Assembly (NCBI RefSeq): GCF_030161095.1
Contig: NZ_BSPP01000019.1
Coordinates: 1 to 64,000 of the forward strand
Length of the DNA stretch: 64,000 nucleotides
Direction: 5' to 3'
Source: Cypionkella aquatica
Lineage (GTDB): Bacteria; Pseudomonadota; Alphaproteobacteria; Rhodobacterales; Rhodobacteraceae
A model generated the notes under the pieces. The model was not told the origin of the DNA. It did no database searches and saw only the letters and a program-made list of their open reading frames with translations. Positions within the stretch are counted from its first letter, which is position 1. Every line of letters begins with the position of its first letter. The position numbers were made by a program, and so were the translations under genes. Shown here piece after piece: positions 7,609 through 54,378 of this stretch.

Positions 7609-7624
7609 TGTCCCAGCTGGGACA
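7609..7624. repeat. parS-like palindrome, copy 1
   Basis: Perfect 16-bp palindrome TGTCCCAGCTGGGACA between repA and the divergent parB-like gene. Palindromes of this size near the operon are the parS sites of repABC plasmids. The same core occurs at 8517, 20802, 39689 and 54363. This copy and the one at 39689 share an identical core and flanks (an AAAACCACA block upstream and GAATC downstream). Confidence 0.75.
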
Positions 7625-7738
7625 GAATCGCTGTCGCTCAGCGCCCGCAAAGGCCCCCAGCGCACGGCGGCGGAAAGCTTCTGAAACCGATTTGCGGCCA
7701 AGTTATCCACATCCCACGCTTGTTTTACAGGAAACCCG

Positions 7739-8719
7739 ATGTCGATCACACGCCCCTTCACAGCCCTGCCGATCCCCCCCGTCACAGCCGAACAGCCCCC
7801 CGCACACACACCGGACGCACCACGACCGCAGGGCCAGGAAATTCTGTTCATCCCGCTGGATGCGATCACCACAACCAAGCTGAAACGCGATCGCGCCTGC
7901 CACATCGACCCCGAAATCGACGATCTCAAGGCCTCGATTCTCGCCACTGGCCTGTCAAACCCGATTCGCATCGACACCTCGCGCCCCGGTCAGTTTGAAC
8001 TGGTGCAGGGCTGGCGCAGATTGTCGGCCTTTCGCGCGCTTTACGCTGAAACCGGGCTGGCCTGCTTTGCCGAAATCGCGGCCATTCCGGTCGCAGACTT
8101 CACCCCCGTTGATCAGCTCTATCGCCGTATGGTCGATGAAAATCTGGTGCGCAAAAACCTGTCCTGGGCCGAGATGGGGCGGATTGCCACCATCTACTGC
8201 TATGATCGCGCCACCGCCTGCACCACGCTGGACGAAGCGATTGACGAGCTGTTCGCCTCGACCAGTCGGCAAAGGCGCAATTACGTCCGGCATTTTGCCG
8301 AATTGATGGTCCGGCTGGAAAAGGTGCTGGAATTTCCCGAGGCGATCCCGCGCGCGTTGGGCGTCAGCCTCAATCAGGCGCTCAAGCACGATTCCAGCCG
8401 CAGCGCCGCCCTGCACAAAGCCCTGCGCGCCTGTCCCGACCGCGACGCCGCAGCCGAGCTTGAAATCCTGCGCCTGTTCGCCGCCGAGATTGAAACCCCG
8501 CAGATCGCAGCGCAACTGTCCCCGCGGGGACAAGCCCGCAGCCCCCACACCGCCGCCAAACCGCGCGGCGAGATGCTCCGGCTGACCCTGCTGGGCGGGG
8601 CCGTCACCTGCACCATCGCGCCGGGCGAAATTGCCTTGCAGCTGGATCGCGATTTCACCCAAACCCCGCGCAACCGGCTGGAAACCGCCATCGCCGCGTT
8701 CTGCGCCGCCTTGGGATAG
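7739..8719 (+). CDS. Additional ParB/RepB-like protein, divergent from repABC
   Basis: 326-residue protein with a ParB-type N-terminal domain: DLKASILATGLSNPIRI and FELVQGWRRLSAFRALY (about 60-105), then DENLVRKNLSWAEMGRIA (about 138-155), matching the ParB partition box. The middle is helical and could hold the DNA-binding region (STSRQRRNYVRHFAELM, about 178-195). The start is supported by AGGAAA 8 bases upstream. It differs from the RepB of this plasmid and has no ParA partner of its own. It carries a parS-like palindrome within its coding sequence (8517-8532). It could be a second centromere-binding factor, a regulator of repABC, or a relic of another replicon. Confidence 0.8.
   Translation: MSITRPFTALPIPPVTAEQPPAHTPDAPRPQGQEILFIPLDAITTTKLKRDRACHIDPEIDDLKASILATGLSNPIRIDTSRPGQFELVQGWRRLSAFRALYAETGLACFAEIAAIPVADFTPVDQLYRRMVDENLVRKNLSWAEMGRIATIYCYDRATACTTLDEAIDELFASTSRQRRNYVRHFAELMVRLEKVLEFPEAIPRALGVSLNQALKHDSSRSAALHKALRACPDRDAAAELEILRLFAAEIETPQIAAQLSPRGQARSPHTAAKPRGEMLRLTLLGGAVTCTIAPGEIALQLDRDFTQTPRNRLETAIAAFCAALG
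8517..8532. repeat. parS-like palindrome, copy 2 (inside the parB-like gene)
   Basis: Perfect 16-bp palindrome TGTCCCCGCGGGGACA, identical in its core to the copy at 54363. It is the only copy inside a gene, where it encodes a Leu-Ser-Pro-Arg-Gly-Gln stretch of the ParB-like protein. ParB proteins often have parS sites in or near their own gene. Confidence 0.6.
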
Positions 8720-8736
8720 CAAACCGCCAGCCAAAT

Positions 8737-8777
8737 AGGGCAGGGGGGGTGCGGGGGGGGGAATATCCCCCTCCCGC
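8737..8777. other. G-run tract with a GC-rich hairpin
   Basis: Runs of 3, 7 and 9 G (8738-8761) are followed by CCCCCTCCCGC, forming a stem around GAATAT. It lies in the 175-bp gap after the parB-like gene. The G runs could form a quadruplex, or the hairpin could end transcription, although no T run follows. Length of the G runs may be affected by sequencing error. Confidence 0.4.
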
Positions 8778-8894
8778 GGTTTGCCAAAAATCCCGCAGAA
8801 ACCATTTGCACCGCGCGGCAGGCTGGCCGATCTTGGGCAGCACAGCCCCCCGCGCTGCCCGCCCCGGCCCGCGCCCCAACCGCAAAGCCCCGAT

Positions 8895-10373
8895 GTGATC
8901 CGATTTCGCCCCTTTGTCGGCATCATGGCGCTCCTGCTTTGCTTTGCTGCGCTGTTTCAACTGGAACGCGCGCGCGCAGGGTTGCAGATTTCCGACCTGC
9001 GCATCGGCACCACCCCCGTCACCCTCTATCAACGCGCGCCCTCTGGCCCTGTGATCGTGGTGGCGCATGGCTTTGCCGGCTCGCGTCAGATCATGCAATC
9101 CTATTCCCTCGCCCTGGCCCAAGCAGGCTACCGGGTGCTGGCGTTCGATTTTGAAGGCCATGGCCGCAACCCCAAACCAATGTCGGGCGATGTCACCGCA
9201 ATCGACGGCACCACAGCACTTTTGGTGGCCGAGACGCGCCGCATAATCGCCTATGCCCGCAGCCTGCCCGGTGACAATCGCGTGGGCCTGCTGGGTCATT
9301 CGATGGCCACCGACATCATCATCCGCGCCAGCATTGCCGAGGTCGAAAGCAACCAGCCCGTGCAGGCCGTGGTCGCGATTTCGATGTTCTCACAGGCCGT
9401 CACCGCCGATTCGCCCCAGCAATTGCTGGTGATTTCGGGGCAATGGGAAAGCTTTCTGCGCAAGGCCGGGCTGGACGCCGCCCGTCAGGTGAACCCCGCC
9501 GCTGCCGAGGGTGCGGTGGTAGGGTCCGGCCCCACCCGCCGCGCCACCATGGTCGCCCCCGGTGTCGAGCATGTCGGCGTGCTGTTCAGCACATCTGCCG
9601 TGCAGGCCGCGCAAGACTGGTTCGACACCAGCTTTAAGCACACCAGCGCAACCAAGCCCACCCCGCGCGGCTGGTGGATCCTCGCGCTGCTGGACGGCAT
9701 CGTTCTGGGCCTTTACCCCCTCGCCGCGAACCTACCCGCTGGCCCCACAGCACCCGCCATCCCGACCCGGCGGTTTCTGCTGGCCATCCTGATCCCTTTG
9801 GCGCTGACCCCGCTGCTGATCACACCTGTATATCGCAACTTTTTGCCGGTGCTGGTGGCCGACTATCTGATGCTGCATCTGGCCGTTTTTGGCGCGCTGC
9901 AACTGGCGCTGCTGCGGATCTGGCCGCGCAGGCCCAGCACAGCCGCAGCGCTGTCGGCACTGGTCCTCGCTTTGTGGGGCATCGCGGTATTCGGCTTGGC
10001 ACTTGACCGTTACGCCGCAAACTTCCTGCCCACACCGCAGCGCCTGCCGATCATCGCCGCGCTGTGCTTGGGCACCATCCCCTGCATGCTGGCCGACAGC
10101 CACCTGACCCAAGCCGGACGCGCCCCAATATGGCGGCGCGTGGCCGCACGGCTGGCGCTGTTCGCCTCGCTGATCATGGCGGCCTTGCTGCGGCCCGATG
10201 ATCTGACCTTCGTTTTGATCGTGTTGCCAGTGTTCGCGCTGTTCTTTCTGGTGCATGGGCTGATGGGGCGCTGGGTCGGGCAACGCGCGGGCGCTTGGGC
10301 GGCGGGCGTTGGCTTGGGCCTTTGCCTCGCATGGGCGCTTGGCGTCAGCTTTCCGCTGTTTGCCCCAGCTTAA
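8895..10373 (+). CDS. Alpha/beta hydrolase fused to a multi-span membrane domain
   Basis: About 492 residues. An N-terminal membrane anchor (IMALLLCFAALFQL) precedes an alpha/beta hydrolase domain with VIVVAHGFAGSRQ, the conserved AFDFEGHGRNPKP and the nucleophile elbow GLLGHSMATD (Ser). A probable catalytic His is in PGVEHVGVLF. The C-terminal half holds about six hydrophobic segments. The start is uncertain: GTG 8895 gives a basic residue before the anchor, ATG 8925 is an alternative, and the longer frame from 8781 begins with low-complexity Pro-rich sequence. Substrate unknown; an esterase or lipase-like role at the inner membrane is possible. It is followed by an MFS carrier and a DNA-repair pair on the same strand. 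Confidence 0.7.
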   Translation: MIRFRPFVGIMALLLCFAALFQLERARAGLQISDLRIGTTPVTLYQRAPSGPVIVVAHGFAGSRQIMQSYSLALAQAGYRVLAFDFEGHGRNPKPMSGDVTAIDGTTALLVAETRRIIAYARSLPGDNRVGLLGHSMATDIIIRASIAEVESNQPVQAVVAISMFSQAVTADSPQQLLVISGQWESFLRKAGLDAARQVNPAAAEGAVVGSGPTRRATMVAPGVEHVGVLFSTSAVQAAQDWFDTSFKHTSATKPTPRGWWILALLDGIVLGLYPLAANLPAGPTAPAIPTRRFLLAILIPLALTPLLITPVYRNFLPVLVADYLMLHLAVFGALQLALLRIWPRRPSTAAALSALVLALWGIAVFGLALDRYAANFLPTPQRLPIIAALCLGTIPCMLADSHLTQAGRAPIWRRVAARLALFASLIMAALLRPDDLTFVLIVLPVFALFFLVHGLMGRWVGQRAGAWAAGVGLGLCLAWALGVSFPLFAPA

Positions 10374-10446
10374 ACCAACGCCCTGACTGGCCTCGCGGCA
10401 AAACCGGCCCATATCAAGGCCAACCCGTTGCAAAGGCCGCCATCCC

Positions 10447-11703
10447 ATGCCGACCACCCGAGCCCCCAGTGGCAGCAGCCATTACCCCCGCGTCAGCCTG
10501 TATGCGCTGCTGCTGGCGGCCACCGGCATCCCGCTGTATATCCACCTGCCGCAGTTTGCCGCGATCAATCTGGGCCTCAGTCTGGGCACCATCGGCACCA
10601 TCCTGCTGCTGATCCGGGTGATTGACCTTGCCCAAGATCCGCTGATCGGCTGGGCGATTGACCGCTGGCCCCGCCTGCAAACCGCCTTCGCGATGGCCGC
10701 CGTGGCGGGGCTGGCCGTGGGCTTTCCGCTGCTGTTTTCGCTCTCCCCCGGCCCGCATGTCACCGCACAACTGGTGGCCGCCCTGATCCTGCTGTTTTCC
10801 ACCTACAGCCTTGGCACCATCCTGCTGTACGGTCGCAGCGCCACGCTGGCCGAGCGACCCGAACCGCAAGCCCTGCTGACCCTCGCCGCCTGGCGCGAGG
10901 GCGGCATGCTCGCCGGTGTGATCCTTGCGGCATTGGCCCCGGCGGTGCTGGTGGTGTTGGGGGCAGGGGGGCAGGGCTATCCTGCGTTCGGCCTACTGCT
11001 GGGCGGGCTTGCGGTGCTGACAGCCGCGATCAGCTTTCCCATCTGGCAACGCCCGGTGATCCTGGGCGAGTCGTTTTCCCTCGCAGGTCTGGCCAACGCA
11101 GGCGCGCTGCGGATTCTGGTGCTGGCCTTGGTCAACAGCCTGCCCGTCGCCATCACCTCAACGCTGTTTTTGTTCTTTGTCGAAGATCGCTTGCAACTGC
11201 CGGGCAGGGCAGGGGGGTTGCTGGCGCTGTTCTTCCTCAGCGCAGGGCTGAGCGTGCCGGTCTGGACCAAGATCAGCCAGCGCATCGGGGCCAAGACCAC
11301 ATTGATGATCTCGATGCCATTGGCGATAGCGGGCTTTGCGGGCGCGGCCTTCCTTGCCCCCGGCGATTACTTGGGCTTTGCGATCATCTGCATCGCCGCA
11401 GGGGCAGCGCTGGGGTCAGACACCATCCTTTTGCCCGCGATGTTTTCGGTGGCGCTGACGCGGGCAGGGCTGAAAGCCTCGCTCGCCTTTGGCATCTGGG
11501 CGTTTGCGGGCAAACTCGGGCTGGCGCTGGCAGCTTTTATCGTGATGCCGCTGTTGCAATGGAACGGTTTCGTGCCCGGCGCCGTTAACAGCCCACAAGC
11601 CCTAAGCACCCTGAACATCGCCTATGCCGTGATCCCCTGCGTGCTGAAACTGGCAGCACTCGCCTTGGTGATCGCCCTGCCGTCCGAGGATCCCGAAACC
11701 TGA
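10447..11703 (+). CDS. MFS transporter of the GPH/MelB-like family
   Basis: 418-residue integral membrane protein with about 12 hydrophobic segments. The N-terminal half contains RVIDLAQDPLIGWAIDRW, the signature of the glycoside-pentoside-hexuronide cation symporter family (MFS_2), at about residues 57-74. Substrate cannot be told from sequence. Unlike the PucC-type carriers further along it shows no link to pigments. Its TGA overlaps the start codon of the exonuclease gene by one base (TGATG), so the two are cotranscribed. Upstream, a 73-bp gap separates it from the hydrolase gene. Confidence 0.75.
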   Translation: MPTTRAPSGSSHYPRVSLYALLLAATGIPLYIHLPQFAAINLGLSLGTIGTILLLIRVIDLAQDPLIGWAIDRWPRLQTAFAMAAVAGLAVGFPLLFSLSPGPHVTAQLVAALILLFSTYSLGTILLYGRSATLAERPEPQALLTLAAWREGGMLAGVILAALAPAVLVVLGAGGQGYPAFGLLLGGLAVLTAAISFPIWQRPVILGESFSLAGLANAGALRILVLALVNSLPVAITSTLFLFFVEDRLQLPGRAGGLLALFFLSAGLSVPVWTKISQRIGAKTTLMISMPLAIAGFAGAAFLAPGDYLGFAIICIAAGAALGSDTILLPAMFSVALTRAGLKASLAFGIWAFAGKLGLALAAFIVMPLLQWNGFVPGAVNSPQALSTLNIAYAVIPCVLKLAALALVIALPSEDPET

Positions 11704-12692
11704 TGCGCGCCGAAGACATCCTTTATCCCACCGAAATGGGTCTGTACTGCGCCCCGGGTGATTTCTACATCGACCCTTTGCGCCCGGTGCCGCGCGCTTT
11801 GGTCACCCACGGCCACGCCGATCACGCCCGCCCCGGCAATGCCGCCGTGATGGCCACCCGGCAAACGCTGGAGATCATGGCGATCCGCTATGGCGAGGAT
11901 TTCACCGCGTCCCGCCAGATCGCCGAAGGCACCACCCGCCTCGGCGGTGTCACCGTCAGCTTTCACCCCGCAGGGCATGTGCTGGGCTCGGCACAAATCC
12001 TGATCACGCCGGATAATGGCCCGCGCATCCTTGTGTCGGGCGATTATTGCCGCGCGCCGAACCCGGTCTGCCTGCCGTTTGAACCGGTGGCCTGCGATAT
12101 CTTCATCACCGAAGCCACCTTTGGCCTGCCGGTGTTCCGCCACCCCGACCCGATTGCCGAGGCCGCGCGCCTGCTGGCCAGCATGGCCGAATTTCCCGAC
12201 CGCCCGCATCTGGTCGGTGCCTATGCGCTTGGCAAAGCCCAACGGGTGATCGCCCTTGCCCGCGCGGCAGGCCATCACGCCCCTATCGCCATCCACGGCG
12301 CGCTGAAACGGCTGTGTGATTACCATGTCGAACAGGGCATCGACCTTGGCCCGCTGGTATCCGCCACCGATCCCGGCGACGCGCAACTGATCCTTGCCCC
12401 GCCTTCCGCCTTCGCCAGCCCTTGGGTGCAGCGCTTCCGCGATCCCGTCATCGCCTATGCCTCGGGTTGGATGACCGTGCGCGCCCGCGCCCGCCAGCGC
12501 GGGGTAGAGCTGCCCTTGGTGATCAGCGACCACGTCGATTGGCCGCAACTGACCGCCACCATCACCGAGCTTGCCCCGCAAGAGGTCTGGATCACCCACG
12601 GCACCGAAGACGGCTTGCTGCGCTGGTGCGAAATCCAAGGCATCGCCGCCCGCCCGCTGCGGCTGGTGGGGTATGAGGACGAGCCAGAATGA
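11703..12692 (+). CDS. Ligase-associated DNA exonuclease (metallo-beta-lactamase fold)
   Basis: 329-residue protein of the MBL-fold nuclease family that includes SNM1/Pso2-like and CPSF-like enzymes. The metal-binding HxHxDH motif is visible in VTHGHADHARPG (about residues 36-47). Further conserved segments are SFHPAGHVLGSAQI and ILVSGDYC. A C-terminal segment (VISDHVDWPQL, ITHGTEDGLLRW) is typical of the ligase-associated form. It is coupled to the following DNA ligase gene by an ATGA overlap. This pair is commonly found together in alphaproteobacteria and annotated as a DNA damage response cassette; the usual helicase partner is not in this window. Confidence 0.85.
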   Translation: MRAEDILYPTEMGLYCAPGDFYIDPLRPVPRALVTHGHADHARPGNAAVMATRQTLEIMAIRYGEDFTASRQIAEGTTRLGGVTVSFHPAGHVLGSAQILITPDNGPRILVSGDYCRAPNPVCLPFEPVACDIFITEATFGLPVFRHPDPIAEAARLLASMAEFPDRPHLVGAYALGKAQRVIALARAAGHHAPIAIHGALKRLCDYHVEQGIDLGPLVSATDPGDAQLILAPPSAFASPWVQRFRDPVIAYASGWMTVRARARQRGVELPLVISDHVDWPQLTATITELAPQEVWITHGTEDGLLRWCEIQGIAARPLRLVGYEDEPE

Positions 12693-14257
12693 AAGCCTTC
12701 GCGCGCCTTCTCGAACGGCTGGCCTTCACCGCAGGCCGCAATGCCAAGCTGACCATCCTTGCGCATTACTTCGCAGCCACCCCCGACCCCGATCGCGGCT
12801 GGGCCTTGGCGGCGCTGACCGGCGGCTTGGATTTGCGGCAAGTCTCGCCATCTCTGCTGCGCCGTCTGGCAGGCGAGCGGATGGATGCGCAGCTTTTTGC
12901 GTTGTCTTATGATTTCGTTGGCGATCTGGCGGAAACCATATCGCTGATCTGGCCCGAAGCCACCACCTCTGGCCCCGAAGTCACCCTTTCGGATGCCGTC
13001 GCCTTGTTGCGTGACACTGGCAAACTGGCGCTGCCCGCAGCCATCGCCCAAGTGCTGGATCGGATGACCCCGCCCGAACGGCTGGCTTTCCTGAAACTGG
13101 CGACCGGGAACATGCGGGTCGGTCTATCTGCCCGGTTGGCACGGGTTGCCCTGGCACAAGGCTCGGCGGCGCAAGACTCGGCGCGCAGCGTTGAAGAGAT
13201 CGAGGAAATCTGGCACGGTCTGACGCCGCCCTACACAGCCCTGTTCGATTGGCTGGCGGGCGGCGCGCGCCCCGAAGCCGCGGCGGCTGCCCCGTTCCGC
13301 CCGGTGATGCTGTCGACCCCGATTACCCCCAGCGAATTGGCCGCGCTCGACCCTGCTGACTACATCGCCGAATGGAAATGGGACGGCATCCGCGTGCAGG
13401 CGGTGTCCGAAGGCGGCATGCGCCGGCTGTATTCCCGCACCGGCGAGGACATTGGCGCAGCCTTCCCCGATCTGCTGGATGCGCTGAATTTTGAAGGCGC
13501 TGTTGATGGCGAGTTGCTGATCCGGCGTGACGGCGATGTTGCCCCCTTTGCCGATCTGCAAAAGCGGCTCGGGCGCAAGCTGGTCAGCAAGGCCATGCTG
13601 CAAAGCCATCCCGCCAGCCTGCGGCTTTATGATATTCTGACTTGGCAGGGCGAGGATCTGCGCGCCCTGCCGCTGCAAGACCGCCGCGCCCGGCTACAGG
13701 CTGCGGATTTTGACAGCGACCGCATCGACCTTTCCCCGTTGTTGCCCTTCACCACATGGCAGGATCTGACCACCCTGCGCGCCGCGCCCCCGGCGCAGGT
13801 GATCGAAGGCGTGATGATCAAACGCCGCACCGCGCCCTATGTGGCAGGCCGCCCGCGCGGGCCGTGGTTCAAGTGGAAACGCGACCCGATGGTGATTGAT
13901 GCGGTGCTGCTTTACGCGCAAAGCGGCCATGGCAAACGATCAGGCTTCTACAGCGATTTCACCTTTGGCGTCTGGGACGGCCCCGATCTGGTGCCCGTTG
14001 GCAAAGCCTATTTCGGCTTTACGGATGAAGAGCTGAAAGAGCTTGACCGCTTCGTGCGCAAGAACACCACTCAGCGCTACGGCCCGGTGCGGCAACTGGC
14101 ACCCTTGCTGGTGGTCGAGGTGGCGTTTGAAGGCTTGAACCTGTCCACCCGCCACAAAGCGGGCCTTGCCATGCGCTTCCCGCGCATCTCGCGCATCCGC
14201 TGGGACAAGCCCGCAGCCGAGGCAGACCATCTGGACACCCTGCGCACGATGTTGTGA
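12689..14257 (+). CDS. ATP-dependent DNA ligase (ligase-exonuclease cassette)
   Basis: 522-residue ATP-dependent ligase. The N-terminal helical DNA-binding domain (about 1-200) includes LAFLKLATGNMRVGLSARL. The adenylation site KWDG occurs in EWKWDGIRVQAV (about 228-239), with Lys as the AMP acceptor. Nucleotidyltransferase motifs GAVDGELL and EGVMIKRR follow, then an OB-fold domain ending with a RIRWDKP segment. No LigD-type polymerase or nuclease domain is present. Together with the preceding exonuclease it forms the cassette linked to repair of cross-links and similar damage. It is an accessory function on this plasmid, not part of photosynthesis. Confidence 0.9.
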   Translation: MKAFARLLERLAFTAGRNAKLTILAHYFAATPDPDRGWALAALTGGLDLRQVSPSLLRRLAGERMDAQLFALSYDFVGDLAETISLIWPEATTSGPEVTLSDAVALLRDTGKLALPAAIAQVLDRMTPPERLAFLKLATGNMRVGLSARLARVALAQGSAAQDSARSVEEIEEIWHGLTPPYTALFDWLAGGARPEAAAAAPFRPVMLSTPITPSELAALDPADYIAEWKWDGIRVQAVSEGGMRRLYSRTGEDIGAAFPDLLDALNFEGAVDGELLIRRDGDVAPFADLQKRLGRKLVSKAMLQSHPASLRLYDILTWQGEDLRALPLQDRRARLQAADFDSDRIDLSPLLPFTTWQDLTTLRAAPPAQVIEGVMIKRRTAPYVAGRPRGPWFKWKRDPMVIDAVLLYAQSGHGKRSGFYSDFTFGVWDGPDLVPVGKAYFGFTDEELKELDRFVRKNTTQRYGPVRQLAPLLVVEVAFEGLNLSTRHKAGLAMRFPRISRIRWDKPAAEADHLDTLRTML

Positions 14258-14409
14258 AAGCCCCGGCCGACCCGCCTTATCCGCCAAATCCTTGCCATTT
14301 CAGACCAAGCTGCCGCCGAAATGCCGCCAATTCCGCCCCAGCCGCCGCAAACCCGCCAGAGTCGACAGAAGATTCCGTGCAACATGTAGCAGGCAAGCCG
14401 CAGTGACAG

Positions 14410-14434
14410 GGAACCATGCATTTGATGGCCCGTT
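14410..14434 (+). promoter_or_regulatory. EcfG-like promoter before the response regulator
   Basis: GGAAC (14410-14414), a 16-base spacer and CGTT (14431-14434). This is the same EcfG consensus and spacing as the pair at 2.5 kb. Transcription would begin about 50 bases before the ATG at 14491. The gene behind it, and the nearby HWE kinase, are of types often tied to the general stress response. Confidence 0.6.
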
Positions 14435-14490
14435 AGACTAGGCCTCGTGTGATTTTCGAGGCAGAATATGTGAAACGAATAGGTGTTATC

Positions 14491-14916
14491 ATGGCTGGAC
14501 GCATTTTGATTGTCGAGGACGAGATCATCGTCGCGATGGATCTGGAAGCGACCCTCGAAGATTTTGGGTTTGAAACGGTCGGGATAGCGGCTGACACCTC
14601 AAGCGCGTTGCAGCTTGGGGCAGCCAATCCTGATGTGGCGCTGGTGGATGTGAACCTGCGCGATGGCCCGACTGGGCCGGAAATCGGCGCGCGTCTGGCG
14701 CGGGATTTTGGGGTGAACGTGGTGTTCATCACCGCCAACCCGCGCATGCTGGGTGATGGCGTGCCGGGGGCGATTGGCGTGCTGCCCAAACCGACCGATC
14801 CGCATACGATCCGGCAGACGGTGGAATATGTGCTCAGCTTGAAGCGCATGGAAGGCCAAGTGATGCCGCCGCCCTCGGCGCTGACGGTGTTCCAATCGCA
14901 ACAGCGCAGCGCCTAA
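14491..14916 (+). CDS. Single-domain response regulator
   Basis: 141-residue CheY-like receiver with no output domain. The acidic pair is in ILIVEDEIIVAMDLE, the phosphoacceptor Asp in VALVDVNLRDG (about residue 54) and the conserved Lys in GVLPKPTD. ATG 14491 is chosen over a GTG at 14449 because it begins the receiver domain and has AGGTG 8 bases upstream. It faces the histidine kinase at 15025-16212 across a shared bidirectional terminator, so the two probably form a pair although they are not in one operon. Single-domain receivers partnered with HWE kinases act in stress signalling in alphaproteobacteria. Confidence 0.85.
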   Translation: MAGRILIVEDEIIVAMDLEATLEDFGFETVGIAADTSSALQLGAANPDVALVDVNLRDGPTGPEIGARLARDFGVNVVFITANPRMLGDGVPGAIGVLPKPTDPHTIRQTVEYVLSLKRMEGQVMPPPSALTVFQSQQRSA

Positions 14917-14952
14917 GGCCGCAACCGGCGGCGACACGCGCCCTTGGTCAGA

Positions 14953-14982
14953 AAAAATCCGCCTGCGTTCAGGCGGATTTTT
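14953..14982. terminator. Bidirectional terminator between response regulator and kinase
   Basis: Perfect 13-bp stem AAAAATCCGCCTG (14953-14965) and CAGGCGGATTTTT (14970-14982) with a CGTT loop. The A and T runs make it work for both converging genes. Right after it, CCTAACCCTGCAAG is repeated in tandem. Confidence 0.85.
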
Positions 14983-15024
14983 CATTGCCTAACCCTGCAA
15001 GGCCTAACCCTGCAAGATACAGCC

Positions 15025-18447: not shown

Positions 18448-18448
18448 G

Positions 18449-20668: not shown

Positions 20669-20801
20669 ACCCCGAGTCGATCAAGCGCAAATTCTGCGCG
20701 ACCCCCAGCACCCCGGCGCAGTCACCCGCACATGCCGAAAACCGACAAATTCCACAAGATATGGTAGAAAAACGCCTAGAAAATCCCGCAAGATACAAGT
20801 C

Positions 20802-20817
20802 TGTCCCCGCTGGGACA
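20802..20817. repeat. parS-like palindrome, copy 3
   Basis: TGTCCCCGCTGGGACA, with one mismatched pair, in the gap between the ends of ppsR and the bchG promoter. Its left flank (ACAAGTC) is shared with the reversed copy at 54363. Confidence 0.65.
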
Positions 20818-22322: not shown

Positions 22323-23114
22323 TTAAGCGCGCTTCAGCACGCAAAAGGCGTCGAACTTAAGGCCCATAACCTCCAGCGCAGCGCCAATGTCATTGGATGA
22401 AAAATCAGCCCCTGTGCATGAAGCCGGATCCTCCACTTTTGACATCACGGCCCCCCCGACGACGATCGGGGTTGGACTGCTCATGATGGTCTTTAAAAAT
22501 TGTATCGTCTTTGCGGCGGATTCGAGTTTTTCCTTGGTGGCAACCGAGATCATCACCCCATCGAAATGCCGCGCTGCCATCAAACTGCGCAATTCGTTGA
22601 AACTTGGCGCAATTCTCAGGCAAACCGAAACCCCGTAGCGGCGCAACTGCCCGGTGGCCACCATCGGCCCCAAGGTGTGCTGCTCGCGCTCTGGCACGAT
22701 CAACATCACCGTGCCGTGCCCCGTGTCGCCCGCCTGATCCGCCACCCATGCCGTGCCAATCTCGCGCAAAAGGCTTTGGAGCCGCCCCACGCCGATGGTC
22801 ACGTCGATCCAGGACAACTCGTCGTCCAGCCACGACTGCCCCATCCGGCGCGCGGCAATCGGGATATACACATCCGACAGCGCCGCCAGACTGATCCGCG
22901 CCCGCTTCACCTCGGTCAGCAGGCCCGAAAACGCAGCTTTGGTGCCCGACAAAGAGGCCGTGATCAGCCCCGCGATCAGCTGCTCGTGCGGCTCGACCAC
23001 CGATTTCACGCTGCGATCGGCCAGCAGCGACACCACCTGAGAGGCAAAGAAACTGACGCCAGAATTGTCCGCAGACAAGCTGCGCGCCTGATGAAGAGGC
23101 TGAAACTCTGGCAT
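22323..23114 (-). CDS. aerR: Cobalamin-binding antirepressor AerR/PpaA
   Basis: 263-residue light-sensing partner of PpsR that binds B12. The N-terminal helical half has RRMGQSWLDDELSWIDVTIG (about 100-119). The C-terminal B12-binding domain shows EREQHTLGPMVATGQL with the cobalamin-ligand His, then GVMISVATK and PIVVGGAVMS. ATG 23114 has GGAGC at suitable distance. It lies directly before ppsR, as in Rhodobacter, with bchF divergent. The PpsR motif at 23216-23233 is about 100 bp upstream of its start, so it may be part of its own regulatory loop. A second, diverged AerR-like gene lies at 1340-2164. Confidence 0.94.
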   Translation of the reverse strand: MPEFQPLHQARSLSADNSGVSFFASQVVSLLADRSVKSVVEPHEQLIAGLITASLSGTKAAFSGLLTEVKRARISLAALSDVYIPIAARRMGQSWLDDELSWIDVTIGVGRLQSLLREIGTAWVADQAGDTGHGTVMLIVPEREQHTLGPMVATGQLRRYGVSVCLRIAPSFNELRSLMAARHFDGVMISVATKEKLESAAKTIQFLKTIMSSPTPIVVGGAVMSKVEDPASCTGADFSSNDIGAALEVMGLKFDAFCVLKRA

Positions 23115-39610: not shown

Positions 39611-39688
39611 GCTTTAGATTACACGCTCAGGCGGGTGGCGCACTAGATATAGTATGCGAAAATACGAAAACCACACCCTACAGAAATT

Positions 39689-39704
39689 TGTCCCAGCTGG
39701 GACA
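39689..39704. repeat. parS-like palindrome, copy 4
   Basis: Perfect 16-bp palindrome TGTCCCAGCTGGGACA in the gap between the converging cycA and dxs genes. With its flanks (AAAACCACA, then CAG and ATTTG before the core, GAATC after) it matches the copy at 7609 over more than 35 bp, except for a short variable part. Confidence 0.72.
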
Positions 39705-47690: not shown

Positions 47691-47744
47691 TTCGCACCCA
47701 CAAGGCGGCGCAAAGCGGCTTCCATTTCGGCAAGGCGATCAAGG

Positions 47745-48749
47745 TCAAACATGGTCATACACCACTTCCAGCGATTTCTTCAGAACGGCATTCTTGCCGC
47801 GCATGTCCGCATCGGTTGCCGGGGTCAGCACGAAATTGGCGCCTGTGGTTTCAGCATCGAACAAGGCCAGCAATCCGTCTTGGTTGACGGGCTTCGGGCG
47901 GACCGGAGGTGCGATTTCCACGGCCTCGGCAAGGGCCGCAAACATCGGGCCCCATTGCGACTGATAGCTGCCAACAATCTGATAGTTCGCGCTTTTCTTG
48001 CGCAGATCATCGTCCTGCGGAATCGCCGCCAGCACTGGAATCCCGACCACATCAGCAAAAGCCGCAGCCTCGCCCGTGCCGTCATCCTTGTTGATCACCA
48101 GCCCCGCAATGCCGACATTTCCGCCCATCTTGCGGAAATATTCCACCGCCGAGCAGACGTTGTTGGCGACATACAGCGATTGCAGATCGTTCGACGCGAC
48201 CAAGATGACCTTCTGCGCCATGTCGCGCGCAATCGGCAAACCAAAGCCACCGCAGACCACATCGCCCAGAAAATCGAGCAGCACATAGTCGAAATCCCAA
48301 TCGTGGAACCCCAGCTTTTCCAGCAGTTCAAACCCGTGGATAATCCCGCGCCCGCCGCAACCCCGGCCCACTTCCGGCCCGCCAAGTTCCATCGCGAACA
48401 CACCGCCACGCTTGAAGCAGACGTCGCCGATCTTGACCTCTTCCCCCGCCAGCTTTTTCTTCGACGAGGTTTCAATGATCGTCGGGCACGCCTTGCCGCC
48501 AAACAACAGGCTGGTGGTGTCAGATTTCGGATCGCAGCCGATCAGCAACACGCGCTTGCCCATCTCGGCCATCATGTGGCTCAGGTTCGCAAGGGTGAAA
48601 GACTTGCCAATGCCGCCCTTGCCATAGATCGCGATGATCTGGGTTTTCTTGGTCGGTACGCCCTGGGGAATTTCCAACGAAGGTTCCTGATGCGCCTCTT
48701 CGCGCAGCCGATTGTCGAAATCGACAAGGTTCGGAATATCAAGCGTCAT
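47745..48749 (-). CDS. bchX: Chlorophyllide a reductase, ATPase X subunit
   Basis: 334-residue NifH-like iron-sulphur ATPase for BchYZ. Walker A is [13 protein letters not shown] (about 42-54). Cluster Cys are in VGRGCGGRG and [10 protein letters not shown]. Longer N terminus than BchL, as usual for BchX. ATGA overlap with the bchC stop. Paralogue of BchL at 30544. Confidence 0.96.
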
Positions 48750-49702
48750 GCGTGGCCCTTCCAGTCGAGTATCATTTTAAGGCAGTTCGGATCGGTGAAT
48801 GCCGTCTCATAGGCGGCGGCGGCTTGGCTGGCGGCGCCGGTGTGGGTGATCAACCCCGCCAGCGAAAGCGCATCGGATTCAACAAGTTGGCGCGTCGCCA
48901 CCATGTCATCAGCAGCCCATTCGGCGGCAATGCGAAACCGCGCTTCCTTCATGAAGGCGGGCGGAAAGGCGAAGGAAATCGGTTGGGTGTAAAAGCCCGC
49001 CAAAACAATCTCGCCACCCTTTTTGATCCGCCCGATCAGGCGGTTCAAAAGGTCAGGCGCACCTGAGGCATCGTAGATCGCGGCGTAATCGCGGCGCGGA
49101 TCGTCTTCCGGCAGCATCACCTGATAACCTTCCGCGCCCGCATGCCGGGCCAGATCGGTCTCCCACACCACCGGCGGCGGTGCGCCAGCGGCGACAGTCA
49201 GCCGCGCAAGCAAGCGCCCCAAAACCCCATGCCCCACAATCAGATCCGGCAAAGCTCGGTCAAATCCGGCCAGCGCATGCCGCGCCGTCGCGGCCAAAGC
49301 CAGCAAAGCGCCTTCGGCCCGCAGGGCCCGGTCAATCCGCGTGACCCGAGCACCGGGCGTCACCAGCAACTGCGACGCCGCCCCAAACAGCCCACGCACG
49401 GGACCAGCCTCGGTCGCCTCAAAGCAATTCGCGCCGGGGACGAACACATACTCGCCGACACGCAAACCCGATTCGGGCCCAGCCTCAACCACTTCGCCCG
49501 CGGCCTCATAGCCCGGCACCAGCGGATAACCCATGCCCGGAAACGGCGGCATTGTGCCCGACCAGAACAGCTTTTCCGTGCCCGTCGAAATACCCGAATA
49601 GGCGATCTGCACCACAACATCCGCCACGCCGGGCGGCGTCAGTGACAGTTGCCCCAGTGACAGCTGCTTTGGTGCAGAAAGTATGACGGCATTGGTTTTC
49701 AC
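48746..49702 (-). CDS. bchC: Bacteriochlorophyllide a dehydrogenase (3-hydroxyethyl)
   Basis: 318-residue zinc-type medium-chain dehydrogenase that oxidises the C3 hydroxyethyl to acetyl. Typical segments: [37 protein letters not shown] and [14 protein letters not shown] (nucleotide binding). I chose GTG 49702, which has GGGGAG 6 bases upstream and matches the family N terminus (TNAVILSAP). An upstream frame to 49738 would run through the leader. First gene of bchCXYZ-puf with two PpsR operators in its promoter. Confidence 0.95.
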
Positions 49703-49769
49703 GATCACTCCCCGGATGGCTGAGGCCCTGAGTCTCAATACAAGACCAAACCCTGCGCTATCCTCTTGG

Positions 49770-49787
49770 TGTCATTCTAGGCTTACA
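49770..49787. promoter_or_regulatory. PpsR operator motif, bchC promoter, downstream site
   Basis: TGTCATTCTAGGCTTACA, perfect TGT-N12-ACA. It covers the -10 box TAGAAT of the bchC promoter. It lies 8 bp from the second motif, the same tandem layout known for bchC of R. capsulatus. Confidence 0.88.
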
Positions 49788-49801
49788 TATATAACTGTCA
49801 A
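49774..49801 (-). promoter_or_regulatory. bchC: Sigma-70 promoter of bchC
   Basis: Read on the minus strand: TTGACA (49801-49796), 16-base spacer, TAGAAT (49779-49774). Start expected near 49767, about 65 bases before the GTG. Both boxes lie inside PpsR operators. Confidence 0.75.
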
Positions 49802-49813
49802 ACAAAATAGACA
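49796..49813. promoter_or_regulatory. PpsR operator motif, bchC promoter, upstream site
   Basis: TGTCAAACAAAATAGACA, perfect TGT-N12-ACA, covering the -35 box of bchC. The crtF stop codon is 24 bp away. Confidence 0.88.
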
Positions 49814-49836
49814 CTTTTGAAAACTTCTCTGTGAAC

Positions 49837-50955
49837 TCACCCGCGCCGGGCCGTGATGACCGATGTGATGAAAGGCCGAAATCCTGTATGAACACAGATA
49901 CTTGTGAACCCCGCCGCTGACAAAATCGCCTCAATCTCTGCGGCAGACCGTGTGCGCCCGGTTTGCATCGCCATAGTGTAAATTGCAAAGTACACATCGG
50001 TTGCGCGGTCAGGCACAGCCCCACCTGACATCGGCTCGGATATGATCAGCCGCCCGCCCACGGGCAGGGCCGTATGCACCGCCTGCAAAAGCCGCAGCAC
50101 CGTCGAATCATCGTGATCATAGAGCACCCGCACCAGGCTGATCGCATCAGCCCCCACCGGCAACGGATCATCCCGAAAACTGCCCGGATGCAGCGCCAGC
50201 CGCCCGGCAAAGCCCGAAGCCGCCAGCCGTGTCCGCGCGCCTTCCAGCACCACGGGCAGATCGAACAGATCAAGCTGCATCTGCGGATAGGCGCGACCCA
50301 CCGCTGCCAGAAACGCCCCCGTGCCGCCGCCCACATCCATCAGCCGCTGCACCCCGGTCAGCGGGGCCATCCGCAACGTATCCTCGGCCACCAGCACCTG
50401 ACTTTCGGCCATCAGCTCGGAATAGGTCGCCGTGACCTGCGGATCGACCGCGCCCGCCGCGCCAAAAACATAGGGCCAGAACCGCGCAAGCTGGGTGTCG
50501 CGGCCATCCCGCAGAAACGCCACCGGGTCGGCCAGATCGGCATAAAGGGCGCGGTGGTGCAGGATCATCGCCTGCAAACCCGGAACGGCCAAAAGCGATG
50601 CACCCCGCAGGGCCAGACCAAAGCGGCCATCGCGGTGCCGCTTCAGCAAGCCCAGCCCTGCACCCGCTTGCAGCAAAACCTGCATCCGTTCGGGCGGCAC
50701 CGCGCACAGGCCCGCCATCTGCGGCACCGCCATCGGGCCATCTTGCAGCAGATGCAGCACGCGCAATTCCACCAGCGCCATCAGAACCTGCGCGTTTACA
50801 AACCCTGCGACCACGTCGAACAACGCCGCACCCTCGGCCCGCGCAATCCGCCGCACAAAAGGAATACGTGCCGCCCAAACCTGAAACCTGCGCGAGGCCG
50901 CCAGCCGCAACAGCCAGCCACGCCGAAAAGAGCTTAGGCTGGGCAAAACCGTCAT
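49837..50955 (-). CDS. crtF: Hydroxyneurosporene O-methyltransferase
   Basis: 372-residue SAM methyltransferase that methylates the C1 hydroxyl of carotenoids in the spheroidene pathway. An N-terminal dimerisation region (winged-helix type: [22 protein letters not shown]) precedes the SAM motif [20 protein letters not shown] (about 205-224). Later [11 protein letters not shown] matches the catalytic part of the family. It starts 1 bp after crtE ends, so the two are cotranscribed. Confidence 0.94.
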
Positions 50956-50956
50956 A

Positions 50957-51838
50957 TCAGCGCCGCACGTCGGCCCGCTGCAAAACCGGGGCCACCGGAG
51001 TCATCCGTTCGGCATAGCGCCGCACCATTTCGGCCAGCATCGCCTCGCCGGGGCAAGACGGAATCGAGGCAATCGCCCCACCCAAGATATCTTTCAGCCG
51101 CCGGATCGCGCCCTGCACCCCCAGCGATGTCACCGCATTGGGCCGCCCATGCGCCGCATCTTGGCCTGCAGGTTTGCCAAGAGTTTCGGCATCATACAGC
51201 GCATCGCGCAGATCATCGGCCACCTGAAACGCCTCACCAATCCGCGCGCCCAATTCTTCCCAAGGCTCGGCATCCTGCCCCGCAGCCAGCGCACCCATCT
51301 GCGTCGCGGCAATGAACAGCGCCCCGGTTTTGGCGCCGTGATAGGCGGACAGGTTGACCTGAGACTCACTCTCCCACCCCTGCCCCGCGCAAATCCCATC
51401 CGGCATTCCGGTGCGGCGCGACAGAACCCGGATCATCTGCAAGGCACGGTCAGCATCTTTGCCCGCCGCAGCCGCCAGCACATCAAACGCCAACACGATC
51501 AGGCTATCCCCGGTCAGCACCGCCAGCGGTTCAGAAAACGCGCGATGCACGGTTGCCTTGCCGCGGCGTTGGTCGGCATCGTCAAAACAGGGCAGATCAT
51601 CATGCACAAGGCTGGCGCAATGGATCAACTCCAGCGCCACCGCCGCCGCATCGGAAAGGCGGGGGCGATCATCGCCGCAGGCCAAAGCCACGCTGAGCAG
51701 AATCGTCGGCCTGATCCGCGCCCCACCCGGCGTCACCGCATAGTGCAGCGCCTGCGCCAGTTGCGCCGGGGCATCGCCGCCCATAGCCCCACGCAAAACC
51801 TGCGCTGTCGCCGCATCAAGCCGTTCGTCGATCTTCAT
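50957..51838 (-). CDS. crtE: Geranylgeranyl diphosphate synthase
   Basis: 293-residue trans-prenyltransferase making GGPP for carotenoids and the bacteriochlorophyll tail. First Asp-rich motif in [18 protein letters not shown] (about 80-97), second in [10 protein letters not shown] (about 217-226). ATG 51838 has GGAGC 6 bases upstream; a longer frame to 51877 is unlikely. First gene of crtEF, divergent from crtD, with two PpsR motifs between. Confidence 0.94.
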
Positions 51839-51884
51839 AAGAAAGCTCCTCAACGGCCGGGCGCCCGGCTGATCCATCGGGAAG

Positions 51885-51902
51885 TGTCACTATAAAATGA
51901 CA
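51885..51902. promoter_or_regulatory. PpsR operator motif between crtE and crtD (crtE side)
   Basis: TGTCACTATAAAATGACA, perfect TGT-N12-ACA, 46 bp from the crtE start. With the second motif 6 bp away it should control both divergent carotenoid operons. Confidence 0.87.
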
Positions 51903-51908
51903 CATATA

Positions 51909-51926
51909 TGTAAATCATACTGGACA
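51909..51926. promoter_or_regulatory. PpsR operator motif between crtE and crtD (crtD side)
   Basis: TGTAAATCATACTGGACA, perfect TGT-N12-ACA, 28 bp from the crtD start codon. Confidence 0.87.
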
Positions 51927-51954
51927 GTTTCCATGTCCAAGTCAACAATCAGAC

Positions 51955-53514
51955 ATGGCAACCGCAGGGCAAAAAATCATCGTCATCGGCGCGGGCATGG
52001 GGGGGCTATGCTCTGCCATCCGCTTGGCCGCCGCTGGCATGCAGGTGACTTTGGTCGAATCGCAGGCCTACCCCGGCGGCAAGATGCGCTGTTTGGCGTC
52101 GATGGCGGGGCCGATTGATGCGGGGCCGACGGTTTTGACGTTGCGGGCGGTGTTTGATGAATTGTTCGCGGTGGCGGGGGAGACTCTGGACGATCACCTG
52201 ACGCTGGTGCCGCAGCCGTTGCTGGCGCGGCATTGGTGGCTGGATGGCGGGCGGTTGGATTTGTTTGCCGATCCGGCGCAAAGTGGCGCTGCGATTGCCG
52301 AGTTTGCGGGGGCCAAGGCAGAGGCGGAGTTTCAGGCCTTCAACCGTCAATCCGCCCAGCTTTACAAGGCGTTTGAGCGGCCGATGCTGCAGGCGATGCG
52401 GCCTGATCTGGCTGGCATTGGGCTGAACGCTTTGCGCGCGCCTGCGGTTTGGCCTGCGCTTTTGCCGCAGCGAAGCTTGGCGGCGCACCTTTGCAACAGC
52501 TTTACCGACCCGCGCTTGCGGCAGTTGTTTGGGCGATACGCCACCTATGTTGGCGGTGCGCCGGATATGTCGCCTGCGGTGCTGGCGCTGATCTGGCAGG
52601 CCGAGGCGCAGGGGGTTTGGGCGGTTAAGGGGGGGATGCATCATCTGGCCCGCGCTTTGGCAGAGCTTGCGACCCGGCTGGGGGTGACGATTCGCTATGG
52701 CACCTCGGCGCTGCGCATCCTGCGGCAGGGGGGGCGGGTGACAGAGGTGGTGCTGTCAGACGGGCGGGCGATGAAATGCGATGCGGTGGTGTTCAATGGC
52801 GATCCGGCGGCGCTTTTGGCGGGGCTTTTGGGCAATGGACCGCAGCAGGCGTTGAAACCGATTGCGGCGCATCCGCGCAGTTTGTCGGCTTGGGTCTGGT
52901 CGTTTGCCGCCACCCCTGCCTCGTTCGATCTGGCGCATCATAATGTGTTTTTCAACAGCGACACCGCGCTTGAATTCGGGCCGATCCGCCAAGGCCGGAT
53001 GCCGGATGAGGCGACGCTGTATGTCTGCGCGCAGGATCGTTCGGTGCCAGATTTCCCTAATTCCGGGCCAGAGCGGTTTGAGATCATCATGAACGCCCCC
53101 GCCAAGACGACCCTTTCCCCGCATGAGGTTTCCGAATGTCGCGCCAAGACTTTTCCGCAACTGGCCAAGTTCGGCCTGACGTTTTCGCCCCCACCCCCCG
53201 ACCAAGCCCTGATGACGCCACAGGGGTTCGCGGGGCTGTTTCCGGGGTCGCAGGGGGCGCTGTATGGGCGCAGTCCGCAGGGGCTGATGGCGAGTTTTCA
53301 GCGACCCGGCGCGCGGACAGCGGTGCAGGGGCTGTATCTGGCGGGGGGCGGCGCGCATCCGGGGGCGGGGGTGCCGATGGCGGCCTTATCCGGCAAGCAC
53401 GCGGCCGAGGCGATACGGAACGACCTGACTTCGGATGCGTCGTGGCCCCGGACGGTTATGCGTGGTGGTATGTCGATGGTGTCTCGGCTGACGGGACGCG
53501 CGCGGTCTCTGTGA
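51955..53514 (+). CDS. crtD: Hydroxyneurosporene desaturase (methoxyneurosporene dehydrogenase)
   Basis: 519-residue FAD-dependent desaturase introducing the C3,4 double bond in the spheroidene pathway. FAD motif IIVIGAGMGGLCSAIRLAAAG is at about 7-27 and the C-terminal FAD region GLYLAGGGAHPGAGVPMAALSG at about 460-480 (split). Family CrtI/CrtD. The last 73 bases overlap the proposed start of crtC in another frame. Start ATG 51955 sits 28 bp after a PpsR motif, so the mRNA leader must be short. Base composition differs somewhat from minus-strand neighbours because codon choice is richer in G. Confidence 0.93.
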   Translation: MATAGQKIIVIGAGMGGLCSAIRLAAAGMQVTLVESQAYPGGKMRCLASMAGPIDAGPTVLTLRAVFDELFAVAGETLDDHLTLVPQPLLARHWWLDGGRLDLFADPAQSGAAIAEFAGAKAEAEFQAFNRQSAQLYKAFERPMLQAMRPDLAGIGLNALRAPAVWPALLPQRSLAAHLCNSFTDPRLRQLFGRYATYVGGAPDMSPAVLALIWQAEAQGVWAVKGGMHHLARALAELATRLGVTIRYGTSALRILRQGGRVTEVVLSDGRAMKCDAVVFNGDPAALLAGLLGNGPQQALKPIAAHPRSLSAWVWSFAATPASFDLAHHNVFFNSDTALEFGPIRQGRMPDEATLYVCAQDRSVPDFPNSGPERFEIIMNAPAKTTLSPHEVSECRAKTFPQLAKFGLTFSPPPPDQALMTPQGFAGLFPGSQGALYGRSPQGLMASFQRPGARTAVQGLYLAGGGAHPGAGVPMAALSGKHAAEAIRNDLTSDASWPRTVMRGGMSMVSRLTGRARSL

Positions 53515-54347
53515 TCGGCTTTATCGGCTCGGTGTTCTCGCCCTGGTATGCGTGGTCGGGGCGGCGCGATCCGGCGAACCATTGTTGCATCAATGTGGTG
53601 ACCTATGGGCCGGGTGGGCGCTTTACCATGACCGACCGGGGGCGGGGGGCGTTGCTGCAAAGCCGGGATGCGTTGCAGATCGGGCCCAGCCGGATGGCGT
53701 GGCAGAACGGCACTTTGGTGATTGATGTGAATGAGGTCTCGGGCCTGCCGATCATTGCGCGGGTGCAGGGGCAGATCCGGCTGACGCCCTCGGCTGTGAC
53801 GGAGGTGGAGGCGATGCTGACCCCGGATGCGCGGCATATCTGGCGACCGTTTGCGCCCTCGGCCCGGATCGAGGTGGATCTGTCGCAGGGGCACGCTTGG
53901 ACGGGGCACGGCTATTTCGATGCCAACTTTGGGCAGGCGGCGTTGGAGGCGGATTTTCAGCGTTGGACATGGGGGCGCTATCCGCGCGCCCATGGCGGGA
54001 CGACGTGTTTTTATGATGGCATCCGGGCCGATGGATCGACGCTGGCGCTGGGGCTGGATGTGGCGGCGGATGGGTCTGCGGTGCAGATTGCGCCGCCACC
54101 GCTGGCGCCACTGGCGCGCACCGGATGGCGGATCAAGCGCGATACCCGCTGTGATGCGGGGGCTGCGCCGCGCCAGACCAAGGCGCTGCTGGACGCGCCG
54201 TTTTACAGCCGATCACTGGTGCAAACCCGGATCGACGGCGAGGTGGTGACGGGGGTGCATGAGGCGTTGGACCTTGGGCGGTTCCGATCCCCGGTGGTGA
54301 AAGCGATGCTGGCGTTTCGGGTGCCGCGGCGGGAAAAGTGGCCGTAA
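53442..54347 (+). CDS. crtC: Hydroxyneurosporene synthase (carotenoid 1,2-hydratase)
   Basis: About 301 residues; adds water to the psi end of neurosporene/lycopene. Lipocalin-like fold with VFSPWYAWSGRRDPANHCCINV, RFTMTDRGRGALLQS and WTWGRYPRAHGGTTCFYDG. The start is uncertain. GTG 53442 includes the strand GYAWWYVDGVSADG that long CrtC proteins have, and overlaps crtD by 73 bases. GTG 53511, overlapping the crtD stop by four bases, would correspond to the short R. capsulatus form (VIGFIGSVFSPWY). Followed by a parS-like palindrome. Confidence 0.9.
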   Translation: MAPDGYAWWYVDGVSADGTRAVSVIGFIGSVFSPWYAWSGRRDPANHCCINVVTYGPGGRFTMTDRGRGALLQSRDALQIGPSRMAWQNGTLVIDVNEVSGLPIIARVQGQIRLTPSAVTEVEAMLTPDARHIWRPFAPSARIEVDLSQGHAWTGHGYFDANFGQAALEADFQRWTWGRYPRAHGGTTCFYDGIRADGSTLALGLDVAADGSAVQIAPPPLAPLARTGWRIKRDTRCDAGAAPRQTKALLDAPFYSRSLVQTRIDGEVVTGVHEALDLGRFRSPVVKAMLAFRVPRREKWP

Positions 54348-54362
54348 AGGCGCGGAAAAATC

Positions 54363-54378
54363 TGTCCCCGCGGGGACA
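54363..54378. repeat. parS-like palindrome, copy 5
   Basis: Perfect 16-bp palindrome TGTCCCCGCGGGGACA, 15 bp after the crtC stop codon; extended TCTG...CAGA arms make it 20 bp. On the reverse strand its flank (AAAACCACAAGTC) shares elements with the copies at 7609, 39689 (AAAACCACA) and 20802 (ACAAGTC). Confidence 0.72.

Follow-up and report, generated by a model that had tools for sequence, protein, structure and literature searches.

Noc and its binding sites (NBS) in Bacillus and Staphylococcus form the described system closest to the one analyzed here. In the available parts of the pertinent reports, Noc is a ParB-family protein encoded outside parAB with 16-bp palindromes scattered over the chromosome, and it differs from its parental ParB in a residue that comes after a conserved serine and reads an outer base of the palindrome (PMC7383237, PMC8429893, PMC5540599). 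One of these reports, as far as it was available, describes Noc as confined to Firmicutes (PMC7383237). Our subject is a stretch of 64,000 nucleotides from Cypionkella aquatica (contig NZ_BSPP01000019.1, positions 1 to 64,000; the whole contig measures 64,133 bp), which we call the window. It carries five parS-like palindromes of 16 bp and, beside the replication gene repA, a gene for an orphan ParB. Noc-type features are present in that this ParB-family protein lacks both a ParA partner and the N-terminal region, and in that its candidate sites are palindromes dispersed over the chromosome. Unlike Noc, the orphan is encoded on a plasmid, is kin to the ParBs of Rhodobacteraceae plasmids and has a phased second module at most of its candidate sites.

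Other described systems share single aspects of this design. The ParABS systems of DnaA-like plasmids (e.g. pRLO149_94) have a homologous ParB and, at many of their loci, the same palindrome. The orphan, however, has no parA directly upstream and has lost its N-terminal region, and where those plasmids have a small number of bare sites within or close to parAB, the genome of the orphan has about 80 dispersed ones, nearly all intergenic. The parS of plasmid P1, with its A and B boxes, combines two motif types in phased spacing around one ParB, which may resemble the situation here, but it is a plasmid centromere served by ParA. The parS of RepABC lies on the same plasmid as our sites and is likewise a 16-bp palindrome with a GC centre, yet it differs from the dispersed sites in sequence and is clustered downstream of repC. 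KorB with its operators on RK2 is, in the portions of its literature at hand, a ParB-family clamp in a role other than partition; it silences genes of its own plasmid, whereas the candidate sites of the orphan lie genome-wide at gene ends. A literature search, with subscription journals mostly outside its scope, returned no title or abstract describing this system, and searches with six of the sequences gave a published match for the RepABC parS only.

Judging from sequence comparisons, we consider the palindromes to be probably the loading sites of an orphan ParB that was recruited to genome-wide duty and is Noc-like in design. The central observation is that some 80 genome-wide sites, partly conserved in position, differ between species in step with the orphan ParB. 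We infer that this protein binds the sites, clamps DNA and would serve a Noc-like, chromosome-wide role; a plasmid partition system it is not. The sites and the gene in the window are the following:

7609 to 7624, unstranded: site 1, TGTCCCAGCTGGGACA, in the divergent gap between repA and the orphan parB
7565 to 7608, minus strand: second module of site 1, type B, with a 12-bp arm, CCACAA at 7591-7596 and TTGTGG at 7570-7575
7739 to 8719, plus strand: orphan ParB-family gene, 326 amino acids (ParB_N, E-value 1.8e-4, below the Pfam gathering score)
8517 to 8532, unstranded: site 2, TGTCCCCGCGGGGACA, within the orphan parB gene, without second module
20802 to 20817, unstranded: site 3, TGTCCCCGCTGGGACA, 38 bp beyond the stop codon of ppsR (identified by NCBIfam)
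20757 to 20801, minus strand: weaker second module of site 3 (GACTTGTAT ... CTACCATATCT)
39689 to 39704, unstranded: site 4, TGTCCCAGCTGGGACA, in a convergent gap, 14 bp beyond the stop codon of the 1-deoxy-D-xylulose-5-phosphate (DXP) synthase gene
39647 to 39688, minus strand: second module of site 4, type B, imperfect
54363 to 54378, unstranded: site 5, TGTCCCCGCGGGGACA, in the gap preceding a convergent TspO-family gene
54379 to 54428, plus strand: second module of site 5, type A (GAC TTGTGG, 25 bp, ATACAATATGTAGTGT)

An earlier note on this DNA had placed the five palindromes exactly where we find them (7609, 8517, 20802, 39689 and 54363), and its description of them holds: four are perfect, the exception being 20802 with its CGCT core; four are intergenic (7609, 20802, 39689 and 54363), 8517 falling within the orphan parB gene; and they are spread over the plasmid, with gaps of 908, 12285, 18887 and 14674 bp, plus 17379 bp if the contig is a circle. 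No exact match occurred in 60 first-order Markov sequences of 64 kb each, and with up to three mismatches allowed the 64-kb stretch had 15 matches (shuffled mean 4.93, maximum 11). The note had also taken the palindromes to be of parS type, which is borne out by the presence of the same palindrome at the parAB loci of homologous ParBs. One of the two proteins that it proposed to test for binding, the second ParB-like protein of the plasmid, is the orphan ParB; this is the likely reader, given the homologous ParBs found at the same palindrome and a match between recognition residue and base described below. Site 1 has counterparts in two further genomes of the genus, G153 (L153:4848) and G160 (L152:8678, core TTCCCC), site 2 is also found in G153 (L153:3932), and sites 4 and 5 each have both flanking genes in common with one site in G153 and G160.

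In the genome containing the window (G000; 4.04 Mb, a draft assembly of 29 contigs), TGTCCCNNNNGGGACA occurs 86 times and its reversed control not at all. The cores of the 86 copies are CGCG in 35, AGCT in 20, CGCT/AGCG in 30 and ACCG in 1. The sequences of contigs C6, C12 and C14 recur within C1, C11 and C7 (the compared stretches are identical, and the duplication is deduced from the coordinates); the redundant loci L096, L119, L120, L142, L144 and L145 were excluded from the counts of junctions, placement, second modules and polarity. This leaves 79 sites in 55 clusters, 16 of which contain at least two copies, mostly 24-59 bp apart. Sites were fetched with their surroundings for all 86 copies in G000, all 28 exact ones in G160, 29 of 63 in G153, and 16 of 79 plus one CGAG variant in G063, a genome of another genus. 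The earlier note had envisaged a condensation of the entire plasmid, or marks at the joints of recombined modules, and had named an equal frequency of the motif across the chromosome as one finding that would count against its view. Since the scan found the motif across the whole genome, mostly at gene 3' ends, neither condensation of this plasmid alone nor marks at module joints account for it.

The sites mark mostly gene 3' ends throughout the genome. In G000, 76 of 79 are intergenic and 3 lie within genes, in sampled DNA that is 87% coding; the corresponding within-gene counts are 2 of 29 in G153 and 0 of 28 in G160. Convergent gaps hold 29 of the 53 intergenic clusters in G000, against a background of 15% by count (P 2e-11) or 20% by length (P 3e-8), and 16 of 22 and 17 of 28 clusters in G153 and G160 (background across the three genomes 9-20%). 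Sites in tandem gaps of G000 lie a median of 60 bp beyond the stop of the upstream gene, and divergent gaps, which are promoter gaps, hold only 2 of 53 clusters in G000, 1 of 22 in G153 and 4 of 28 in G160. With mostly convergent and few divergent gaps, the sites are not placed as promoter operators are. It is therefore quite improbable that they are operators of an ordinary transcription factor regulon with ParB as a bystander, even if site 1 sits in the divergent gap of repA and parB and the composite site resembles a multi-protein operator; the motif, moreover, accompanies the ParB family across genera, together with its recognition residue.

Location at 3' ends, mostly in convergent gaps, would also suit transcription roadblocks or bidirectional terminators, at which a ParB complex or a hairpin halts read-through between converging genes, and the palindrome can form a 6-bp hairpin. 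We nonetheless regard this as unlikely: no consistent T-run follows the palindrome (judged by eye; no terminator scan was run), a good number of clusters contain multiple copies, most are equipped with a phased second module, for which a terminator has no use, and the core changes with the ParB residue.

The plasmid is denser in sites than the rest of G000 (5 against 1.2 expected, Poisson P 0.008), as is that of G160 (3 against 0.33 expected), and it encodes the ParB. This would agree with a tether, by which ParB bridges plasmid and chromosome sites and the plasmid hitchhikes on the nucleoid. However, the plasmid already has repABC with its parS, and most sites in G063 lie far from parB, though bridging is compatible with that; we consider a tether very improbable.

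One argument for the orphan ParB as reader comes from its relatives in the genus, for which our sample comprised 15 genomes including G000, six of them less than 90% complete. An ortholog beside repA was found in three, namely G000, G153 (88% identity) and G160 (64-68%). TGTCCC-type sites number 63 in G153; among the other thirteen genomes, two have 1 and the rest 0. The palindrome beside the G160 orphan is TTCCCCGCGGGGAA, and a search of the genus for this core, made after that observation, yielded 28 dispersed sites in G160 (the first included), none in G000 and G153, and 0-2 per genome in the remaining twelve. Both flanking genes match the genes next to a G000 site (BLAST, identity of 45% or more) at 15 of the 28 clusters of G160 and, in the G153 sample, at 13 of 23; these are raw counts without a chance level. 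Because G000 and G160 have sites at shared junctions, it is the core itself that differs there between the species.

Residue 177 of the orphan (in S-R-Q) is arginine in G000 and G153 and proline in G160, and the G160 sites read TTCCC in place of TGTCCC. We collected 58 loci with 37 distinct recognition helices, 32 of which have a palindrome at no more than one mismatch. In these 32 ParBs, residue 177 pairs with base 2 of the commonest palindrome as R-G in 19 of 19, P-T in 5 of 5 and Y-T in 8 of 8 cases, in a set of interrelated proteins and with a scan that admitted only G or T at base 2. For Noc, the available part of one report relates R173 of ParB and Q173 of Noc, beside S172, to the preference at an outer palindrome base (PMC7383237). 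By analogy, residue 177 of the orphan looks equivalent to this position. The same data bear on whether the sites could be selfish repeats of the repetitive extragenic palindromic (REP) or miniature inverted-repeat transposable element (MITE) type, with an accidental resemblance to parS. REP elements do occur at gene 3' ends, and the sites are a dispersed composite of two palindromic parts at such ends. Their spacer sequences vary, however, while the motif spacing is nearly fixed, their positions are common to several species, and the core at shared junctions differs together with the ParB residue, all of which makes selfish repeats highly improbable.

Outside the genus, copies of the palindrome are grouped within and near parAB genes. 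At 10 of 13 fetched loci from other genera we called a ParB homologous to the orphan (38-45% identity) and adjoining a ParA-like gene; neighboring genes in some other loci were mis-called by our home-made gene caller. The loci with annotation at hand are DnaA-like replicons, with a DnaA N-terminal-domain protein, ParA and ParB. On the photosynthesis plasmid pRLO149_94 of Roseobacter litoralis, a parAB pair, with parB abutting bchO, is accompanied by three exact palindromes in 6.5 kb. One paper reports, in its accessible part, photosynthesis plasmids in six genomes; five of them have a DnaA-like I module, which occupies a conserved central position within the gene cluster (PMC6052148). Two side observations concern such plasmid loci. 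Beyond parB, one locus of G088 (L074, 1029-1393) has a centromere-like array of seven tandem palindromes, most of them spaced by about 55 bp; two of the seven have one mismatch. At L034, L036 and L213, parS-like palindromes lie within the coding sequence of bchD- or bchO-like genes beside a DnaA-like parAB.

The only ParA-like gene adjoining the orphan parB is repA of RepABC. A search of G000 with a DnaA-like ParA found no cognate ParA, and the best match in G000, G153 and G160 was RepA of RepABC (46-48%, partial length); relatives of this ParA elsewhere are in G155 (80%, beside its ParB) and in G063 (60%, on another contig and beside another ParB). An N-terminal stretch with an F-D/E-I motif and an RRGPM segment is kept in all 26 other aligned ParBs (two identical and two with called starts inside the motif; a ParA neighbor was seen for many, not for each) and is missing in all four orphans. 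It is also missing from the open frame upstream of the four starts, which in G000 extends for only 18 codons. ParA contact through an N-terminal ParB motif is established in other families, according to the portion of the source at hand (PMC12462528). By comparison with these, the region lost in the orphans would be the ParA-contact region. The motifs SI..G..NPI, GxRR and ENxxR are visible in the ParB alignment and may correspond to the Box I to III cytidine triphosphate (CTP) motifs of the ParB CTPase fold.

Because repABC and the orphan parB sit within the photosynthesis gene order, the arrangement suggests that a replicon swap left parB behind. ParB would thus derive from the parAB module of a DnaA-like plasmid; RepABC would have taken over replication and partition, leaving ParB without ParA, and the orphan would then have been recruited to its genome-wide duty. 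Its dimers would recognize the palindrome through the helix-turn-helix, with residue 177 reading base 2, close as CTP clamps and slide onto flanking DNA. The clamps may mark or structure the nucleoid and perhaps coordinate it with division or with replication, in the manner of Noc in Firmicutes.

A second orphan lineage stands out in the family-wide counts. The motif is present in 35 of 394 family genomes, and the three highest numbers in this count, 85 in G000, 79 in G063 and 62 in G153, all belong to genomes with an orphan ParB, the next being 15, 14, 12, 11 and 10. In G063, at least 13 of the 79 sites lie on C1 and three within 2 kb of parB on C17. The 17 fetched sites are bare, with 13 within genes and the hexamer of the second module within 50 bp at only 1. 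The G063 orphan has a shortened N-terminus and stands beside bchO and bchD; upstream of it, in place of ParA, is a gene without Pfam match. Our tree parts the G063 ParB from the clade of the window, and a single orphan origin is found in 2% of bootstrap trees, long branches calling for caution. A survey, in its available part, notes many orphan ParB-like proteins that are encoded apart from parAB operons and frequently lie on mobile elements (PMC12704722).

At most sites of G000, G153 and G160, the palindrome is joined by a second module, TTGTGG...CCACAAYATRTTGTGG, at a helically phased spacing. Usually one site per cluster bears it, and on one side only. In type A it reads GAC-TTGTGG-25 (or 15) bp-CCACAAYATRT, and in type B a 12-bp arm, TTGTGG, 15 bp and CCACAATATCT. 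The hexamers lie at about +3, +12, +24, +34 and +44 from the palindrome, in steps of about ten bases. By a definition drawn up after the pattern had been seen, composite sites number 48 of 79 in G000 (shuffled flanks: mean 2.7, maximum 10), 21 of 29 in G153 (0.9, 5) and 23 of 28 in G160 (0.8, 3). The full second palindrome, CCACAAYATNTTGTGG, is present only in the orphan-bearing genomes of the genus, at 8 (G000), 11 (G153) and 13 (G160) places, and at none in the other twelve. All eight G160 copies without an exact first palindrome have a degenerate one, matching in 10-11 of 12 letters, at a distance of 40 or 50 bp, and of ten G153 copies outside earlier stretches, seven have an exact first palindrome, one a degenerate one and two none; the degenerate matches were counted without shuffled control. 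The module may be a second contact of the orphan ParB or the site of a further partner protein. An RNA stem formed by TTGTGG and CCACAA was dropped because the hexamer partners often mismatch (judged by eye, without an RNA tool).

The one-sided elements have a polarity, which agrees with 8-kb GC skew in 32 of 42 cases in G000 (P 0.0009); for G153 the agreement is 13 of 17 (P 0.049) and for G160 12 of 19 (P 0.36). Compared with 20-kb tiles in G000, by our own reading, the agreement is about 8 of 9 on C4, 4 of 9 on C7 and 3 of 5 on C10. On C4, the polarity flips roughly where the GC skew flips, near 200 kb; this is not so on C7 and C10.

Several findings weigh against a ParB recruited to a Noc-like duty as proposed here. 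The N-terminus of the orphan has prolines at 6 and 11, and its hydrophobic moment is reached by 7-29% of shuffles; with these prolines and no convincing amphipathic helix, membrane binding of the Noc type is unsupported. The closest relatives found are plasmid-type ParBs and not members of the Noc family, and Noc chains match the orphan weakly (E-values 0.025 and 0.079). An AlphaFold model of the orphan, built from three sequences, had a mean predicted local distance difference test (pLDDT) score of 44.5 and was not used. The limits given with the residue-base count apply here as well, and five more proteins with Y at this position have no site, while one Y locus (L093) also has a single G-type palindrome. 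In the tree, the orphan clade adjoins TTTCCCC-type ParBs (94/84, long branch), so the shared TGTCCC core may be convergence. Dispersed sites also occur with parAB: G001, which bears parAB, has 10 sites on several contigs, G087 has 5 on four contigs, and G081 has 3 on C1, away from parAB. ParB relatives were found in 76 of 149 genomes, with ParA neighbors checked for part of them, and the link between orphans and sites covers the orphans found. The second module does not extend to plasmid-type sites (2 of 51 have a hexamer no more than 50 bp away), and ParB alone does not explain it. Finally, a link of element polarity to replication was rejected as inconsistent with large-scale GC skew.

Against this background, we see an even balance for and against a broader scenario, in which a plasmid partition ParB became, on two or more occasions within Rhodobacteraceae, a clamp protein of the whole chromosome. 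In the lineage of the window it would work from a loading element of a new kind at the 3' ends of genes, bipartite and helically phased, a photosynthesis-plasmid protein would organize the whole genome or couple it to the cell cycle, and a counterpart of Noc would have evolved independently outside Firmicutes. It would be a candidate separate case of a ParB turned chromosome-wide protein, in Alphaproteobacteria, with a living series that runs from plasmid ParABs with few sites over the G063 orphan with bare scattered sites to the orphans of G000, G153 and G160 with the composite element. Across species, a change in one amino acid is accompanied by a matching difference at dozens of sites, and both the role of the orphan ParB and the co-evolution of a whole site set with its reader become testable. 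Since the chromosome bears candidate sites for a protein of the photosynthesis plasmid, these may be a reason to keep the plasmid.

The partition function of the plasmid resides elsewhere, in its RepABC replicon:

3968 to 7455, minus strand: repC 3968-5173, repB 5341-6279 and repA 6280-7455 (Pfam)
3924 to 3966, unstranded: RepABC parS pair, GTTGACAGCTGACAAC at 3924-3939 and GTTGACAGCTGTCAAC at 3951-3966, directly downstream of repC

The copy at 3924 is a one-base variant of GTTGACAGCTGTCAAC at 3951, and pairs of GTTNNNNGCNNNNAAC stand at the corresponding place in G153 and G160. The RepABC parS pattern GTTNNCNGCNGNNAAC is matched by both copies and by none of the five palindromes. In the accessible part of one report, GTTGACAGCTGTCAAC is a parS in experimental use, from Paracoccus pAMI4, and parS sites of Rhodobacterales are found in the repB-repC interval as well as downstream of repC (PMC9040568). 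The 3924/3951 pair is the plasmid's own centromere, that of RepB, and the five palindromes are therefore something else. The earlier idea of centromere sites belonging to this plasmid, or of sites for RepB, is thus not supported, and we also rejected RepB as reader of the second palindrome, its own parS differing in sequence and place.

The contig carries a photosynthesis gene cluster together with this replicon, in the order bchI-bchD-bchO, porphobilinogen deaminase and URO-D genes, repABC, orphan parB, DNA-repair genes, and then idi-bchP-pucC-like-bchG-ppsR. Gene calls are home-made, and a gene was probably missed at 53514-54871, where the open reading frame 53511-54347 has no Pfam match. 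Between the replicon and the photosynthesis genes, 11703-14257 encodes a ligase-associated exonuclease and an ATP-dependent DNA ligase. Two proteins with a B12-binding domain are encoded at 1340-2134 and 22323-23114, one of them a weak match to the haem-sensor domain of AppA.

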